Under the pieces are notes generated by a model, which was not told where the DNA came from, made no database searches, and saw only the letters and a list, made by a program, of their open reading frames with translations. Positions 36,059-64,000 of a stretch of 64,000 bases of DNA are shown in pieces. Each line of letters starts with the position of its first letter. The stretch's first letter is position 1. Position numbers and translations under genes: made by a program. The stretch comes from Haliotis asinina (taxonomy: Eukaryota > Mollusca > Gastropoda > Lepetellida > Haliotidae): the NCBI RefSeq assembly GCF_037392515.1, contig NC_090288.1, forward strand, positions 60,683,673 to 60,747,672. The letters run 5' to 3'.

Positions 36059-36204
36059 TGTCATGTTAAAACACGATGCCCGATTTGGGCAAGCAGTCTG
36101 AGGCGCCAGACTACAGATCCAGCGAGCTGGAGGTGCAGGGATCGAGCCCACCTGTAACTGGGCGTTAAATCGTTGGAATCAACTTTTTATGTTCAGGCCC
36201 TTTC

Positions 36205-38628
36205 AGTGTTGTCACAACCTCTAGTGTGCAGTTCACAACCTCTAGTGTGCAGTACACAACCTCTAGTGTGCAGTACACAACCTCTAGTGTGCAGTACACA
36301 ACCTCTAGTGTGCAGTACACAACCCCTAGTGTGCACTACACAACCCCTAGTGTGCACTACACAGCCCCTAGTGTGCAGTACACAACCTCTAGTGTGCACT
36401 ACACAACCTCTAGTGTGCAGTACACAACCCCTAGTGTGCACTACACAACCCCTAGTGTCCAGTACACAATCTCTAGTGTGCAGTACACAATCTCTAGTGT
36501 CCAGTACACAACCTCTAATGTGCAGTACACAACCCCTAGTGTGCAGTACACAACCTCTAGTGTGCAGTACACAACTTCTAGTGTGCAGTACACAACCCCT
36601 AGGGTGCACTACACAGCCCCTAGTGTGCAGTACACAACCTCTAGTGTGCACTACACAACCTCTAGTGTGCACTACACAACCCCTAGTGTGCACTACACAG
36701 CCCCTAGTGTGCAGTACACAATCTCTAGTGTGCAGTACACAATCTCTAGTGTGCAGTACACAACCTCTAGTGTGCAGTACACAACCCCTAGTGTGCAGTA
36801 CACAACCTCTAGTGTGCAGTACACAACTTCTAGTGTGCACTACTTAACCCCTAGTGTGCAGTACACAGCCCCTAGTGTGCAGTACACAACCCCTAGTGTG
36901 CAGTACACAACCCCTAGTGTGCAGTACACAACCTTTAGTGTGCAGTACACAACTTCTAGTGTGCAGTACACAACCCCTAATGTGCAGTACACAACTTCTA
37001 GTGTGCAGTACACAACCCCTAGTGTGCAGTACACAACCGCTAGTGTGCAGTACACAACCTCTAGTGTGCAGTACACAACTTCTAGTGTGCAGTACACAAC
37101 CCCTAGTGTGCAGTACACAGCCCCTAGTGTGCAGTACACAACCCCTAGTGTGCAGTACACAACCTTTAGTGTGCAGTACACAACTTCTAGTGTGCAGTAC
37201 ACAACCCCTAGTGTGCAGTACACCACCCCTAGTGTGCAGTACACAGCCCCTAGTGTGCAGTACACAACCTCTAGTGTGCACTACACAACCTCTAGTGTGC
37301 AGTACACAACCTCTAGTGTGCAGTACACAATCTCTAGTGTGCACTACACAACCTCTAGTGTGCCGTACACAACCTCTAGTGTGCAGTACACACCCTCTAG
37401 TGTGCAGTACACAACCTCTAGTGTGCACTACACAACCCCTAGTGTGCCGTACACAACCCCTAGTGTGCACCAACCTCTAGTGTGCAGTACACAACCTTTA
37501 GTGTGCAGTACACAACCTTTAGTGTGCAGTACACAACCACTAGTGTACAGTACACAACCTCTAGTGTACAGTACACAACCTCTAGTGTGCAGTACACAAC
37601 ACCTAGTGTGCAGTACACAACTTCTAGTGTGCAGTACACAACCCCTAGTGTGCAGTACACAACCTCTAGTGTGCAGTACACAACCTGTAGTGTGCACTAC
37701 ACAACCCTAGTTTGCCGTACACAACCCCTAGTGTGCAGTACACAACCTCTAGTGTGCAGTACAGAACCTCTAGTGTGCAGTACACAACCCCTAGTGTGCA
37801 GTACACAACCTCTAGTGTGCAGTACACAACCCCTAATGTGCAGTACACAACCTCTAGTGTGCAGTACACAACCTCTAGTGTGCACTACACAACCCCTATT
37901 GTGCCGTACACAACCCCTAGTGTGCACCAACCTCTAGTGTGCAGTACACAACTCCTAGTGTGCAGTACACAACCTCTAGTGTGCACTACACAACCTCTAG
38001 TGTACAGTACACAACCTCTAGTGTACAGTACACAACCTCTAGTGTGCAGTACACAACACCTAGTGTGCAGTACACAACCTCTAGTGTACAGTACACAACC
38101 CCTAGTGTGCAGTACACAACCTCTAGTGTGCAGTACACAACCCCTAGTGTGCAATACACAACCCCTAATGTGCAGTACACAACCCCTAATGTGCAGTACA
38201 CAACCCCTAATGTGCAGTACACAACCTCTAGTGTGCAGTACACAACCCCTAATGTGCAGTACACAACCTCTAATGTTCAGTACACAACCCCTAGTGTGCA
38301 CTACACAACCCCTAATGTGCAGTACACAACCTCTAGTGTGCAGTACACAACCTCTAGTGTGCACTACACAACCCTAGTGTGCAGTACACAACCCCTAATG
38401 TGCAGTACACAACCCTAGTGTGCAGTACACAACCCCTAGTGTGCAGTACACAACCCCTAGTGTGCAGTACACAACCCCTAGTGTGCAGTGCACAACCCTA
38501 GTGTGCAGTACACAACCCGTAGTGTGCGGTACAAAACCTCTAGTGTGCAATACACAACCCCTAGTGTGCAGTACACAACAACTAGTGTACAGTACACAAC
38601 CCCTAGTGTACGGTACACAACCCTGTCC
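36205..38628. repeat. 21-bp minisatellite array, about 115 units
   Basis: About 2.4 kb of the unit CTCTAGTGTGCAGTACACAAC (21 bp) with variants (CCC/CTC/TTC/TTT before TAGTGTG; CAG/CAC/CCG before TACACA). Because 21 is divisible by 3 and the unit lacks stops in several frames, long Ser-Val-Gln-Tyr-Thr-Thr, Cys-Val-Leu-His-Thr-Arg-Gly and similar frames run on both strands. Rare 20-bp units near 37705, 38372, 38412 and 38500 shift the frame. Larger duplications are visible: a 457-bp step links 37468 and 37925, around the odd GTGCACCAACCTC junction. Confidence 0.97.
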
Positions 38629-56071: not shown

Positions 56072-56232
56072 ACTTGGCACAGCAACAGCTTCATTCCCCA
56101 TTTAATAAATCTTCATCTTCACCACCATTGCCTTGTGTCGTCTCGAGCAGCAGCCCAGAGCCGAACCATCAAACATACGGCTACACTTGCATTATAACAT
56201 ATCTATGTATGTACGTGTAAGTTCTCGTACCT

Positions 56233-56321
56233 CCCGGGAGCGGTTCGGTAGCCTTGTGATTAAAGCGTTGGCTCGTCACGCCGAAGACTCGGGTTCGAAT
56301 CTCCGCATCGTTACGTACCCG
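56233..56321 (+). mobile_element. SINE family B head
   Basis: GGGAGCGGTTCGGTAGCCTT with A box GGTAGCCTTGTGA and B box GGGTTCGAATCTC, then diverging into unrelated GTTTTTGTTG-rich sequence. Only the tRNA-like head is present. Confidence 0.75.
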
Positions 56322-56639
56322 GTTTGTTTTTGTTGTTTTTTTGTGTTTGGTTTTGTTTTTGTCGAAGTTGGTGTTATTGTTGTTGTGTGTTTGGTTTTTG
56401 TATTGTTTATTATTCCCAGTACGTTGAATACAAGCATACAGAGGAACGGGTGTAAATAGCAGCGTGTCGGCTCAATAGACATACGTTTTCAAAATTATCA
56501 TTTCGTCTGGAAAAGAAGTTTTCAGTGGTGAATATGGCCTTCAACATTCTTAAGTGATTATCAACTTAGCATACCACTTAGCAGAGGGTTGTGCGATTCA
56601 GCACTTTTTTGTAAGGTACAGATTCTAGTTCACTTTGGG

Positions 56640-56745
56640 GTTGAGTCACATCCAGGATTCGAACCAGCACTCTCACAGCCAGGCACCGAATCGCCAGCAC
56701 AGAAAGTCAACCACCGTGGTTTCCACATAAATGGAAGTCGGACAA
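56640..56745 (-). mobile_element. tRNA-related SINE, family C, with deleted A-box part
   Basis: The minus strand reads CCACGGTGGTTGACTTTCTG ... GTGCTGGTTCGAATCCTGGA with a clear B box. Compared with the right repeat copy, 17 bp (GCTGAACTCGCTCAACC on the plus strand) are missing between two CAACC words, consistent with slippage. Confidence 0.6.
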
Positions 56746-57107
56746 CTGGCACTCTAGACTGCACACTTTGTGTACCCCTCTGATACCTGTATATTTTTGT
56801 AGTATCGTTATTGGTAGCTCTTATATGAGTAGCAGCTCGTATATATGCCTGTGCACGAGTGTGTGTGCGCGTGCGTGCGTGCGTATGTATGTATATATAA
56901 TACCGAAATCATATCACTGCGCGGTGAATAGAGGGGAAAAATACTTCAAGATTTGACAAACGTTACTTCATTTAAACAAACTTTTTGTTTACCTGCTTCT
57001 CTGATGAAATGTAATCATATGGTAATTCTTCTTCATGCAGCGATGTTTTACGGTTTATAGATAACATGGCATATGTGGACATGTGTAAAACCTGTGAAAG
57101 TCATTAA

Positions 57108-57250
57108 TGACGTTAGTGAGTACTACAACCCGTCGCCATATAGCTGGAAAACTAAACTCACTCACTCACTCACTAGTGAGTACTACAACCCGTGAAGGTC
57201 CCGCCATATAGCTGGAAAACTAAACTCACTCACTCACTCACTAGTGAGTA
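57108..57250. repeat. Tandem repeat of about 65 bp containing SINE tail pieces
   Basis: Two and a half units of AGTGAGTACTACAACCCGT plus CCATATAGCTGGAAAACTAA and (ACTC)n. The unit includes the SINE tail, so it arose by amplification of a SINE end. The right copy is at 63116-63256. Confidence 0.85.
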
Positions 57251-57530
57251 CTACAAATCCAGTAACTAAGTTGAAGACCTATTTATCACGGTACAACAAT
57301 GCTTCCTGGAGAACGGCCTCAGGAAATGACTGCTTTCCTCAAGACAGTTGTTCTTTTTGGAAAAGTAATAAGTGTTAATAAAAGTCTACAACTGTCTATT
57401 GTAACTCCAAACAATTGACCTGAGACGAAGCCTGTATAATTGTTTTGTATACAATAAATGTTGTGTATTGATTGTATTTGTTTGTTTCTTGTTTCACCCC
57501 ACTCTGCTAAATACTAGGCACATGGCGAAT

Positions 57531-57645
57531 GTCTGTAAATGATCAAGCATGGAACAGACCATCCAGTGATCAAGTTAGATCCCGTTAGTCGCCTCGTACG
57601 ACATACATAAGTTACTGAAGGTCAGTTTTAACCTGGATCTTCAAG
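57531..57645 (-). mobile_element. Diverged SINE family A fragment
   Basis: GTCTGTAAATGATCAAGCAT, CAGACCATCCAGTGATCAAG and GATCCCGTTAGTCGCCTCGT match SINE A at reduced similarity with an internal deletion. Also present in the right repeat copy (63535-63649). Confidence 0.65.
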
Positions 57646-57908
57646 ACCAAGCAGTTTATACCACGTTTAGTAAAAGTTGGTTATTCAAGCGAAAGTTACA
57701 TGTTTACTTTTCAATAAAGCGAAACAGACGAGAATACTGACATTTTGAGGATATAACAGGCGACGATTATCATACACGGTTAATCATCAGATCATGTCAC
57801 AAATAATCTGTTGTGAAGTATTCACTAAAAATAGTGCATTTGGAATTATTTACATGATGGATTTGTTCATCTTTCGTATGTAACATATTCCACTTGCACA
57901 GAAGATGG

Positions 57909-58035
57909 GATGACGGGGTATCCTTGCGGCTGAAGCGTTCGCTCGTCACGCCGAAGACCCGGGTTCGGAAGTCCATTCCACACTCTCGGTCAGACACTTA
58001 ATCGTCAGCACACAAAGTCAGCGATCTAACCCACC
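57909..58035 (+). mobile_element. SINE family B head joined to SINE C-like sequence
   Basis: GATGACGGGGTATCCTTGCG ... TCACGCCGAAGACCCGGGTTCG is a SINE B head with a mutated A box. It joins near 57975 to sequence like family C (TCGTCAGCACACAAAGTCAG). It is the last shared part of the direct repeats visible in this window. Confidence 0.6.
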
Positions 58036-58324
58036 AAGCCACTTCACAAAAACATATGTCTGACATCTTGTAGGCTAGACTACGCACCACTCTGACAATT
58101 GTAAGGCCGAATTACGGATTGGGTTCAACCCTTAAACGTACAAGAATCTGTACATTTCTGAGAAAGAGTAGTCTCAGCTAATTAGTAAATGTGAACGTGT
58201 CTACTTCGTTAACAGGCATGGCTTTCCTCACTATGACCCCTATGACACCTTACAAAAACTACTTCAGTGTTTGACTGGCGTGAATAACGCTAGTAGTGCA
58301 CAGCGTCTCTCTGGCGCCTTTTTC
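58036..58324. other. No recognisable feature
   Basis: Spacer between the left direct repeat and the regulatory block. Nothing supported. Confidence 0.45.
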
Positions 58325-58580
58325 AAGATGGCGGCACTTCCGGTCACGTGACCCGCATGGTGACGTCATTCGATTGTTCTCGGATGACGTCATGAGTTGG
58401 TGTGTACGGGGGTGTGACGTCATTTGATTGTTCTAGGATGACGTCATGAGTTGGTGTGTACGGGGGTGTGACGTGATCGTTAGCAACGGGGGTGTTGCTA
58501 AGCAACGGTGGTTTGTGCGCGATTTCGCGTGATCTCGCGTGATCTCGCGAGAAGGAAGCGTGTTTCAAGATGGCGACAGA
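58325..58580. promoter_or_regulatory. Dense promoter/enhancer-like block (YY1, ETS, E-box, CRE x4, RFX, TCTCGCGAGA)
   Basis: In order: CAAGATGGCGGC (YY1/TISU-type, 58333), ACTTCCGG (ETS), TCACGTGA (E-box), four perfect CREs TGACGTCA at 58361, 58385, 58415 and 58439 (two copies of a 54-bp repeat), a half CRE near 58469, an RFX X-box GTTGCTAAGCAAC (58494-58506), TCTCGCGAGA (58543-58552), and a second AAGATGGCG (58567). The combination is typical of strong CpG-rich promoters. Which transcript it drives is unclear. The AAGATGGCG motif suggests a plus-strand start near 58565 that would run antisense to the zinc-ribbon gene at 58.8-59.3 kb. Confidence 0.7.
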
Positions 58581-58594
58581 CGGACGGCACGGGA

Positions 58595-58690
58595 CGGGAC
58601 GAGGGAAGGGAAGGGAAGGGAAGGGAAGGGAAGGGAAGGGAAGGAGAGGGGAGAGAGGGGGGGAGAGGGGGGAGGAGGGAAGAGTGAGTG
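58595..58690. repeat. (GGGAA)n and G-rich low-complexity tract
   Basis: GGGAAGGGAAGGGAAGGGAA repeats followed by GGGG-rich sequence. The plus strand has many closely spaced G-runs able to form G-quadruplexes. Short Gly/Arg/Lys/Glu frames here are artefacts of composition. Confidence 0.95.
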
Positions 58691-58740
58691 GAACGACGGC
58701 GATGGGGGGATGGGATGGGGATGCATCGTGTTTCAAGCAG

Positions 58741-58776
58741 TCTTTAGGGAGCATGTGGGTGGCCCTGAAAAGGGCC
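58741..58776 (-). terminator. Histone-type 3' stem-loop plus downstream element (zinc-ribbon gene Z1)
   Basis: On the minus strand, 22 nt after the Z1 stop codon, GGCCCTTTTCAGGGCC (58776-58761) is a 6-bp stem with a TTTC loop followed by ACCCAC. This fits the metazoan replication-dependent histone stem-loop (GG---TTYT-A---CC then ACCCA). AAAGA begins 15 nt further on (58745-58741), in the place of a histone downstream element bound by U7 snRNA. Confidence 0.8.
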
Positions 58777-58798
58777 GTGAGGTGTGGATGCTTCACAG

Positions 58799-59329
58799 TC
58801 AGCATCGGCAGATGAGTTGGAGTCCTCGGAAAACATATTTGCCGGGACAAATGTCATCGTGGAGGGATTGCGTTCCTTTGGGGACACCCCCACCACAATA
58901 GAGACATACGTAAAACTTGGCTGTTGGGACGACATCGAATCGATCGAATGGACGGGCTTTCAGACAGGTAGGGCACATGATGAATCGCCATTGGTCTGCT
59001 AATTCTTGTAATGGCACCATTTCCGTGTTGGCTGTTTTCTTGGCTGTAGTGCCTGTTCTCGCGGTGGTTGTTGTTGTTGTTGTTGGTGGTGGTGGTCGCG
59101 CTGTCGTGCCAGCTCCCGTCGTTCCGTCGTCGTCGTCGTCGCCACCGTCTTCAATCTTGATGGTCGGTTCTAGTGGTGGTGAGGGTGTGGTGGTGGTGGT
59201 AGGAATGAGGGGTGTTGTCCCTTCTTTCTCTTCTTCTTCCTTCTTCGGGCTGCACCGGAGACACTGTTTTCGTCCACAGTTTCTTCGGTAAGGGGTTGGT
59301 CGATCCATTTTCACTTTACGTGTATCCAT
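58799..59329 (-). CDS. Zinc-ribbon protein Z1 of the virus-like module
   Basis: A 176-residue protein of unknown function. The N-terminus is basic with three cysteines (C18, C23, C26). A low-complexity Thr/Pro/Asp/Glu region follows, including EEEEKE, DDDDD and a run of Thr. At the C-terminus is a zinc-binding region with C119-x2-C122-x19-C142-x2-C145-x11-H157-x3-C161-x12-C174-x-C176. I chose the ATG at 59329 because the TATA box (59399-59391 on the minus strand) predicts transcription starting near 59365, downstream of a longer in-frame ATG at 59386. The protein shares its C-terminal spacing with Z2 on the opposite strand. No intron is needed and a histone-type stem-loop follows. A role in nucleic-acid binding, such as transcription or genome packaging, is inference. 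Confidence 0.75.
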   Translation of the reverse strand: MDTRKVKMDRPTPYRRNCGRKQCLRCSPKKEEEEKEGTTPLIPTTTTTPSPPLEPTIKIEDGGDDDDDGTTGAGTTARPPPPTTTTTTTARTGTTAKKTANTEMVPLQELADQWRFIMCPTCLKARPFDRFDVVPTAKFYVCLYCGGGVPKGTQSLHDDICPGKYVFRGLQLICRC

Positions 59330-59386
59330 ATCTTCGTCACACACACAAGGAGTCGGCGATATGTGAGGGTGACTAGTCATGGCCAC

Positions 59387-59551
59387 GTTTATATAGCCTC
59401 GACGACGTCACAGCCGTGACGTCGTGCTTGCACGTGAGATCGTGACATCATCATGGCGCGTGAGGTCGTGACGTCATTGTCGTGAGGTGTTGTCTTGTGA
59501 TTGGTTGAGTTCTGTTATATAAGATGAGGAGGAAGACGACAGCGGACAACC
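59387..59551. promoter_or_regulatory. Bidirectional promoter between Z1 and Z2
   Basis: The minus-side TATA box (GCTATATAA, 59399-59391) and plus-side TATA box (TATATAAG, 59516-59523) face outward about 120 bp apart. Between them are CRE-like sites (GACGTCAC near 59406, TGACGTCG near 59418, TGACATCA near 59446, perfect TGACGTCA at 59469-59476) and an inverted CCAAT box (GATTGG, near 59499). The spacing and divergent TATA layout recall histone gene pairs. Confidence 0.75.
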
Positions 59552-59869
59552 ATGGAAGAAAACTGGGATCTAGAACTGATATCCGTGGAGACACCACCAC
59601 CATCGCCAGCGCCCATCCCTCTACCACCACCGGCTTTTCCATCATGGCGACACTTGCCAGCTTGGCAGTGTCGCCAATGCCAGGGAGGGTTGCCCGTGTA
59701 TTGCAAGGGCACGAATGACTACAGCGGGACTTTTCAATGCGTGTATTGCGGCACGGTGTTGAAAGATACTTATCATCGCCGGCTGACTCACGGGGCCAAG
59801 TGCCCCGTGAAAACCAAGATAACCATTCACCCGTGCCAGTGCATGATACCACCCCTGTGGTCGTTGTGA
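59552..59869 (+). CDS. Zinc-ribbon protein Z2 of the virus-like module
   Basis: A 105-residue protein starting in a strong Kozak context (CAACCATGG), about 30 nt after the TATA box, so the 5'-UTR is very short. An acidic start and Pro-rich segment (15-36) precede C40-x2-C43-x19-C63-x2-C66-x13-H80-x3-C84-x10-C95-x-C97, almost the same spacing as in Z1, including F-CVYCG against F-VCLYCG and H---CP. Z1 and Z2 are therefore probably paralogues. It ends 20 nt before a histone-type stem-loop and is convergent with the protease gene. The likely role is nucleic-acid binding or regulation, not established. Confidence 0.75.
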   Translation: MEENWDLELISVETPPPSPAPIPLPPPAFPSWRHLPAWQCRQCQGGLPVYCKGTNDYSGTFQCVYCGTVLKDTYHRRLTHGAKCPVKTKITIHPCQCMIPPLWSL

Positions 59870-59889
59870 TCATCACAACGGAAAAAAAC

Positions 59890-59925
59890 GGCCCTTTTCA
59901 GGGCCATCCAACTTTCTCTAAAGAA
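59890..59925 (+). terminator. Histone-type 3' stem-loop plus downstream element (zinc-ribbon gene Z2)
   Basis: GGCCCTTTTCAGGGCC (59890-59905) starts 20 nt after the Z2 stop (59867-59869). The stem is identical to that of Z1. It is followed by ATCCA and, 14 nt later, AAAGAA (59920-59925), a histone downstream element-like purine motif. No AATAAA lies in this interval on the plus strand. Confidence 0.8.
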
Positions 59926-59981
59926 TGCTTTCATGCTATGACAATCATAACAAGACATGTGTGTTGTTTTCTTTTCAACGT

Positions 59982-59987
59982 TTTATT
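59982..59987 (-). promoter_or_regulatory. Poly(A) signal AATAAA for the protease-side transcript
   Basis: AATAAA on the minus strand, 64 nt after the protease stop codon. The capsid/protease transcript therefore has a conventional signal, unlike Z1 and Z2. Confidence 0.6.
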
Positions 59988-60051
59988 TCCCCCGCTAACA
60001 AGAACCATGGTGACAAAAGAGTCAGGATTAGGGGCGTCCCTGATCTTTTGT

Positions 60052-60681
60052 TTACAAACGGTAGGAACTCGAACATGAAGAGAACATCATAACATCAGAA
60101 CCATAAGAACAACATGTTTGACAGGGCTGTGGATCCTGGACGTCGTTGTTGTTGTCTGGTAGGCGTGTGAGTTGAAACCAGCGTTTCACACGTTCTTCAT
60201 TGACGAGGGTGTTGAAGGGATCAAACTGTTCCATCACGTCGTCGAAAGTCCATCCACGGGCACGATGAGCCAGGACAAACAGGCAGTACATTCCGCAAGA
60301 GCTACTGAACCAGGGTTGAAGTGAATTCACATTCCACCGCTGTGCGAGCCATCCTGTGTAGGCCATGACATGCCGAACGTCTGGATGCAGTTGGGTGGGA
60401 TCACTTATAGAATACCTTGGTCCATAGTAGTGGGTAGGGACGCCATAACTGTCAAAGTACTCAAAGACACCCGGTGCTGGACGATACATGCACACCCAGT
60501 GTTGTCCCGGGAGATGACTAGGGTCCGTGTTGACGATGTAAGCTTTAGGATAAGGTCCGTGTCGTTCACTTAGCACGGTGATGGCAAAGTGATCTCGGGC
60601 AAAAGTCCCTTGGTAAAGGGGTCGCAGCAGGGGGTCCTGTTGGACGTAGGCGTTCAAGTCCTTGGTCGTCAGTCCATCCAT
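60052..60681 (-). CDS. Adenovirus-type cysteine protease (adenain-like, peptidase C5)
   Basis: A 209-residue maturation protease of the type found in adenoviruses and Polinton/adintovirus-like elements, where it cleaves capsid precursors. Catalytic residues are visible in order: His61 in GQHWVCMYRP, Asp77 in FEYFDSYG, Gln122 and Cys129 in LQPWFSSSCGMYC. The Gln-Cys spacing of 7 equals adenain's. HRARGWTFDDVMEQFDP and a Cys-rich tail follow. I start at 60681, 10 nt after the extended end of the capsid-like gene, rather than at an in-frame ATG at 60783, which lies inside the capsid C-terminal region. The frame is intact. It is on the same strand as, and directly downstream of, the capsid-like gene, probably co-transcribed. 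Confidence 0.85.
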   Translation of the reverse strand: MDGLTTKDLNAYVQQDPLLRPLYQGTFARDHFAITVLSERHGPYPKAYIVNTDPSHLPGQHWVCMYRPAPGVFEYFDSYGVPTHYYGPRYSISDPTQLHPDVRHVMAYTGWLAQRWNVNSLQPWFSSSCGMYCLFVLAHRARGWTFDDVMEQFDPFNTLVNEERVKRWFQLTRLPDNNNDVQDPQPCQTCCSYGSDVMMFSSCSSSYRL

Positions 60682-60691
60682 CCTTAGACCA

Positions 60692-62035
60692 TCAGAGCGT
60701 TGCGCGGAACCGATCAATTTCCAACACGCTTTCGTATTCCTCGTAGCAGACGAGGGTGACCGGACGCGGCAAAGGTTCTGCAAACTGGAGTTCGAGTCCC
60801 AACTTGCCCGTGTGTCGTGGGTAGTTATGACCTTCGTCTGCTCCCAGATCTGCCGTCAAATCCACCACCCACAGGGTGAATCCGTTCCTGAACTCGTCTA
60901 GGGTGAGGTTGCAGGGATGTTCTTGTCACAGGTGTCCCGTGTTGCGAAACAGGTTCATGTACAACTGTTTGAGCGAACCACTGTTGTTCTGAAAGTCACT
61001 TTTGATTTCTGTGCCATGCACTTCCTGGCCATTGAGTTTCAGTTTCAGACTGGTCACGTTGTTGTGTTTGAAATGGAAGGGGTTCTTTTCCTTGCTACCG
61101 GCAAAAGCATCGTTGTCCACCAGTCCCAACACCACGCGTTTGGGCAGTTGTCCTCCCACCAGTTGATCTTTGTGGAAATCGCGCCCTCCTCCTGGAATGT
61201 CGTGAGCCGTGACTTGGACTCGGGTCAAAGGATATTTGGCCATGACTCCTGGTGACATGTGTTTCACGTGCTGTTCCCGTATGGCAGGATCGATGTTGAC
61301 TTGGCGTACGTAAAACTCGGCTTTGGTCAGTTCAAATCGACATTCCACATCTCCAGCACTCATCAAGTAGAAATCACTCGGGCTCCGAATCAGTTCTAGT
61401 TTCATGGGGACGCCATCCACCAGGTACCGGTCTTGGAGAAACAGGTCACAGTGGAGACGTCCTGTCAGTTCCACTTCTCGGGTGGGTAAAATGACCCGCC
61501 GTCGTGCGACAAGTCCTGCATTGACATTCTGAGCGACGGCATTGAAGTCATCCATTTTTCCAGCTTCATCGGTGTACCATCCTGGGCACTGGAGATGCGT
61601 CCCTTTGGCTGCCTTCCCATAACTCAGTAATGTTTCCAAATAGGCTCGGTAGGGATAGGTTCCCATGGAGGGGGTGATTTCCAACTGATTGTGTCCCACT
61701 TGCACACGCACTTCTCGAAAGAGGGAATGCATCATGTTGTTCACCGTGGACATGACGAGTCGGTCATCCCCATCATGAGTGGCATCCGTGCCATCGGTAT
61801 TCTTGATTTTGAGGCAGATGCGAAGGTAACACTGATTCAAATCGATGTACGCATTCACAGGGTTGGCAATGTTAAACTGGAGGGGACCCGCCACCGAAGG
61901 GGGTGCCAGTGGACTGTATCGAATCCACTGACCCTCTTGAACTGACGTCACCACAGGAGGAACCGAAAAGAGATCCAACTGTGACTTGGCACATTCACAA
62001 GCATCCCGGCGCATCATCTTGACAGGTCTGCCCAA
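60692..62035 (-). pseudogene. F54H12.2-family capsid-like protein with an in-frame stop
   Basis: An open stretch of 369 codons from 62035 ends at a TGA (60928-60926), then the same frame continues for 77 more codons to a TGA at 60694-60692. The start carries CECAKSQLDLFSVPP (13-27), a hallmark of the invertebrate family annotated after C. elegans F54H12.2. Further motifs are YPYRAYLETLLSYGKAAK near 125-145 and, after the stop, NGFTLWVVDLTADL and YEEYESVLEIDRFR. Those last two are conserved C-terminal features, so the family's normal end lies beyond the stop. I interpret the family as a jelly-roll capsid protein of Polinton/Maverick-like elements, on the basis of the neighbouring adenain-type protease. 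The capsid role is inference. The stop may be a nonsense mutation, a sequencing error or a readthrough site (TGA-C). A second in-frame ATG lies at residue 7. Confidence 0.7.
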
Positions 62036-62091
62036 CAGGTCTTGACAGGTTCGTGTCTGGTGTTGAACTGACCCTTGTTCATAGGAATGAT

Positions 62092-62100
62092 CCTTTTATG
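62092..62100 (-). promoter_or_regulatory. TATA-like box for the capsid-protease transcript
   Basis: CATAAAAGG on the minus strand, 57 nt upstream of the first capsid ATG, which would place the transcription start near 62068. Confidence 0.45.
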
Positions 62101-62151
62101 TCAAGTCCAATGTCACAAAGTTCCATGACGACTCAAAACAAAGCTTGACGT

Positions 62152-62187
62152 TTTTGTTGTTGTTGTTTCTTCTTCTTCTTCTTCTTT
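62152..62187. repeat. (TTG)n/(TTC)n low-complexity tract
   Basis: TTGTTGTTGTTGTTTC followed by TTCTTCTTCTTCTTC, immediately before the right direct repeat begins. Confidence 0.9.
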
Positions 62188-62199
62188 ATGGGACCAGAC

Positions 62200-64000
62200 A
62201 CGTGTAAGTTCTCGTACCTCCCGGGAGCGGTTCGGTAGCCTTGTGATTAAAGCGTTGGCTCGTCACGCCGAAGACTCGGGTTCGAATCTCCGCATCGTTA
62301 CGTACCCGGTTTGTTTTTGTTGTTTTTTTGTGTTTGGTTTTGTTTTTGTCGAAGTTGGTGTTATTGTTGTTGTGTGTTTGGTTTTTGTATTGTTTATTAT
62401 TCCCAGTACGTTGAATACAAGCATACAGAGGAACGGGTGTAAATAGCAGCGTGTCGGCTCAATAGACATACGTTTTCAAAATTATCATTTCGTCTGGAAA
62501 AGAAGTTTTCAGTGGTGAATATGGCCTTCAACATTCTTAAGTGATTATCAACTTAGCATACCACTTAGCAGAGGGTTGTGCGATTCAGCACTTTTTTGTA
62601 AGGTACAGATTCTAGTTCACTTTGGGGTTGAGTCACATCCAGGATTCGAACCAGCACTCTCACAGCCAGGCACCGAATCGCCAGCACAGAAAGTCAACCG
62701 CTGAACTCGCTCAACCACCGTGGTTTCCACATAAATGGAAGTCGGACAACTGGCACTCTAGACTGCACACTTTGTGTACCCCTCTGATACCTGTATATTT
62801 TTGTAGTATCGTTATTGGTAGCTCTTATATGAGTAGCAGCTCGTATATATGCCTGTGCACGAGTGTGTGTGCGCGTGCGTGCGTGCGTATGTATGTATAT
62901 ATAATACCGAAATCATATCACTGCGCGGTGAATAGAGGGGAAAAATACTTCAAGATTTGACAAACGTTACTTCATTTAAACAAACTTTTTGTTTACCTGC
63001 TTCTCTGATGAAATGTAATCATATGGTAATTCTTCTTCATGCAGCGATGTTTTACGGTTTATAGATAACATGGCATATGTGGACATGTGTAAAACCTGTG
63101 AAAGTCATTAATGACGTTAGTGAGTACTACAACCCGTCGCCATATAGCTGGAAAACTAAACTCACTCACTCACTCACTAGTGAGTACTACAACCCGTGAA
63201 GGTCCCGCCATATAGCTGGAAAACTAAACTCACTCACTCACTCACTAGTGAGTACTACAAATCCAGTAACTAAGTTGAAGACCTATTTATCACGGTACAA
63301 CAATGCTTCCTGGAGAACGGCCTCAGGAAATGACTGCTTTCCTCAAGACAGTTGTTCTTTTTGGAAAAGTAATAAGTGTTAATAAAAGTCTACAACTGTC
63401 TATTGTAACTCCAAACAATTGACCTGAGACGAAGCCTGTATAATTGTTTTGTATACAATAAATGTTGTGTATTGATTGTATTTGTTTGTTTCTTGTTTCA
63501 CCCCACTCTGCTAAATACTAGGCACATGGCGAATGTCTGTAAATGATCAAGCATGGAACAGACCATCCAGTGATCAAGTTAGATCCCGTTAGTCGCCTCG
63601 TACGACATACATAAGTTACTGAAGGTCAGTTTTAACCTGGATCTTCAAGACCAAGCAGTTTATACCACGTTTAGTAAAAGTTGGTTATTCAAGCGAAAGT
63701 TACCTGTTTACTTTTCAATAAAGCGAAACAGACGAGAATACTGACATTTTGAGGATATAACAGGCGACGATTATCATACACGGTTAATCATCAGATCATG
63801 TCACAAATAATCTGTTGTGAAGTATTCACTAAAAATAGTGCATTTGGAATTATTTACATGATGGATTTGTTCATCTTTCGTATGTAACATATTCCACTTG
63901 CACAGAAGATGGGATGGCGGGGTATCCTTGCGGCTGAAGCGTTCGCTCGTCACGCCGAAGACCCGGGTTCGGAAGTCCATTCCACACTCTCGGTCAGACA
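62200..64000. repeat. Long direct repeat, right copy (runs off the window)
   Basis: Starts ACGTGTAAGTTCTCGTACCT and matches 56213-57996 with very few differences. The copies are offset by 5,987 bp, becoming 6,004 bp after the 17-bp indel at about 62699. It contains the same SINE B head (62220-62308), SINE C (62628-62745, with intact A-box region), tail tandem repeat (63116-63256), SINE A fragment (63535-63649) and SINE B head (63913-63990). The window ends before the copies diverge. Confidence 0.9.

Follow-up and report, generated by a model that had tools for sequence, protein, structure and literature searches.

Histone-type 3′ ends are a trait of cells, and in metazoans they are, to our knowledge, nearly exclusive to replication-dependent histone genes. 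Viruses are also known to use histone-related host features, as in the histone genes of bracovirus (H4), Marseilleviridae and medusavirus; the terms stem-loop, SLBP and polyadenyl are absent from the available part of PMC9145170. Histone mRNAs are presented as a unique class without a poly(A) tail in the available part of PMC12775136. Whereas those viruses carry histone proteins, the locus analysed here, a virus-like element in a 64,000-nucleotide stretch of Haliotis asinina (NC_090288.1, positions 60,683,673 to 60,747,672, forward strand; the window), bears just the mRNA 3′ signal, on two small non-histone genes.

The presence of histone-type 3′ ends on these two genes is confirmed. As the preliminary description had claimed, the same exact hairpin follows both zinc-ribbon-like open reading frames (ORFs), on opposite strands, with a purine motif 14-15 nt beyond it, while the neighbouring protease gene has AATAAA (Table 1). 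With the replication-dependent histone mRNA 3′ end (RF00032; SLBP and U7 small nuclear ribonucleoprotein), the locus has in common a 6-bp stem, a 4-nt loop and the flanks, the purine box at that distance, the lack of a nearby AATAAA or ATTAAA, and ORFs without interruption, as both window genes are; it differs in the genes concerned, which encode no histones but small zinc-ribbon-like proteins belonging to a mobile element. Scoring with the Rfam histone 3′-UTR covariance model, as had been proposed, gave the curated score for the (+) stem-loop, the (−) one lying under the gathering score. No AATAAA or ATTAAA, the only two forms scanned, was found within 2.3 kb downstream of either gene. A search for U7 snRNA (RF00066) gave no match in the same genome, and none in control genomes either.

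The hairpins were also compared with histone 3′ ends of the same genome, and proved identical to the hairpin of the host H1 units that were read. A purine-rich element resembling that of host histone genes, compared with H1 only, is present 10-20 nt past the stem. The host array (C6:42261096-42524455, L012-L030 and beyond) contains at least 62 histone hairpins, spaced mostly by about 3.25 kb; in the three units read, H1 was the only histone gene recognised. A gap of this array (L110, C6:42279000-42284400) contains a 1245-aa ORF, whose start presumably resembles a retrotransposon endonuclease.

Loss of the hairpin from other copies would have spoken against the preliminary description; instead, it is retained in copies in which identity at third codon positions has fallen to as little as 40-47%, its structure being conserved through paired, compensatory stem changes. 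It is sense-oriented and placed mostly 20-25 nt past the expected end of both short ORFs. The stretch downstream of the (+) hairpin has 0-2 differences in 18 of the 20 chosen copies, and 5 in L052 and L054. The element is old, many-copy and virus-like, and because the hairpin signal persisted as the remainder of these genes diverged, these comparisons suggest that it may borrow the replication-linked route by which the cell finishes its messages.

We favour, at a probability of roughly 0.7, the reading that in a lineage of animal double-jelly-roll DNA viruses or elements the host histone stem-loop machinery (SLBP/U7) would finish a defined subset of mRNAs, non-polyadenylated and coupled to S phase, the structural genes being polyadenylated, and that host histone genes were the source of the signal, or the template to which it was adapted. 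The preliminary interpretation is partly supported. Capture of a host histone 3′ end is the likely origin of the signal. A single recent capture, followed by passive carriage in near-identical copies, would agree with the identity to the H1 3′ end and with the numerous close copies, but does not fit the paired changes and the retention at diverged third positions, and we consider it very unlikely. The same identity, and the many copies in the genome, could also be expected of a decoy titrating SLBP/U7 rather than using them for mRNA finishing. The sense orientation, the distance of mostly 20-25 nt from the expected end of the two short ORFs, and the lack of AATAAA/ATTAAA downstream in the window copy, argue against such a sponge, which appears quite improbable; position, orientation and missing signal together have the layout of a processing signal. 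Compensatory changes would preserve a DNA palindrome as well, so that the inverted repeats might act at the DNA level, as a cruciform, a protein-binding site or a replication element, with a coincidental likeness to histone ends; we regard this as extremely unlikely.

If histone-type ends do operate on these genes, an integrated DNA element could sense S phase directly, and a mobile element keeping them on its own genes would offer a natural experiment on how much this signal achieves by itself. They would also keep the transcripts out of RNA data sets obtained by poly(A) selection, and such genes would therefore be systematically missed.

Table 1. Features of the element (window coordinates).
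Feature	Position	Strand	Remarks
Stretch containing all features below	58292..62199	none	
Stretch beyond (−) hairpin	58735..58750	(−)	
Hairpin of 58799..59380 gene	58761..58776	(−)	exact hairpin; RF00032 31.2 bits, E 3.3e-6, below gathering 34
Zinc-ribbon-like small ORF	58799..59380	(−)	68 own-genome matches, identity 100% down to 33%
Stretch between both small ORFs	59381..59551	none	TATATAA at 59516 (+) and 59395 (−); TGACGTCA at 59469
Zinc-ribbon-like small ORF	59552..59869	(+)	115 own-genome matches, identity 100% down to 37%
Hairpin of 59552..59869 gene	59890..59905	(+)	exact hairpin; RF00032 match 59885-59931, 41.0 bits
Stretch downstream of (+) hairpin	59916..59931	(+)	compared across chosen copies
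AATAAA downstream of protease gene	59982..59987	(−)	in contrast to hairpin genes
Adenain-like cysteine protease, weak match	60052..60681	(−)	Pfam Peptidase_C5 E 0.026, below cut-off; PDB adenain E 0.53
Double-jelly-roll major capsid protein (F54H12.2-like)	60926..62017	(−)	99% to Haliotis asinina P0001

Pfam searches gave no match for the (−) small protein and nothing above cut-off for the (+) one. The double-jelly-roll major capsid protein expected of a Polinton/adintovirus-like element was found: the AlphaFold model of P0001 (pLDDT 80.5) matched, with Foldseek, capsid proteins of virophages, adomaviruses and adintoviruses (PDB 3j26, TM 0.62). The capsid gene is interrupted by one in-frame TGA inside the match, in the window copy and its tandem twin alike. 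With regard to terminal inverted repeats and a target-site duplication, left alignment starts cluster at 58291-58292 and at 58338, and the window copy is without a right end. A 98.9% identical direct repeat, formed by 56213-57996 and 62200-64000, shows a tandem duplication of the element together with its left flank, the repeating unit being about 6.0 kb.

A similar end was seen on a BIR-domain (inhibitor-of-apoptosis-like) gene of a related element (L111, C9:57500800-57502200, minus strand), near a 55% capsid relative: its histone-type hairpin scored 31.5 bits, under the cut-off, and an 18-nt stretch matches the downstream element of host H1 without a difference. Of the nine TGACGTCA (CRE) palindromes in the window, six fall inside the element (58361-58446, 59469, 61943), and four of these are part of a short repeat close to the element's left end. 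Elsewhere in the window, approximately at 36156-38500, a large array of a 21-bp repeat includes a part that reads through without stops, encoding CSTQPLV repeats.
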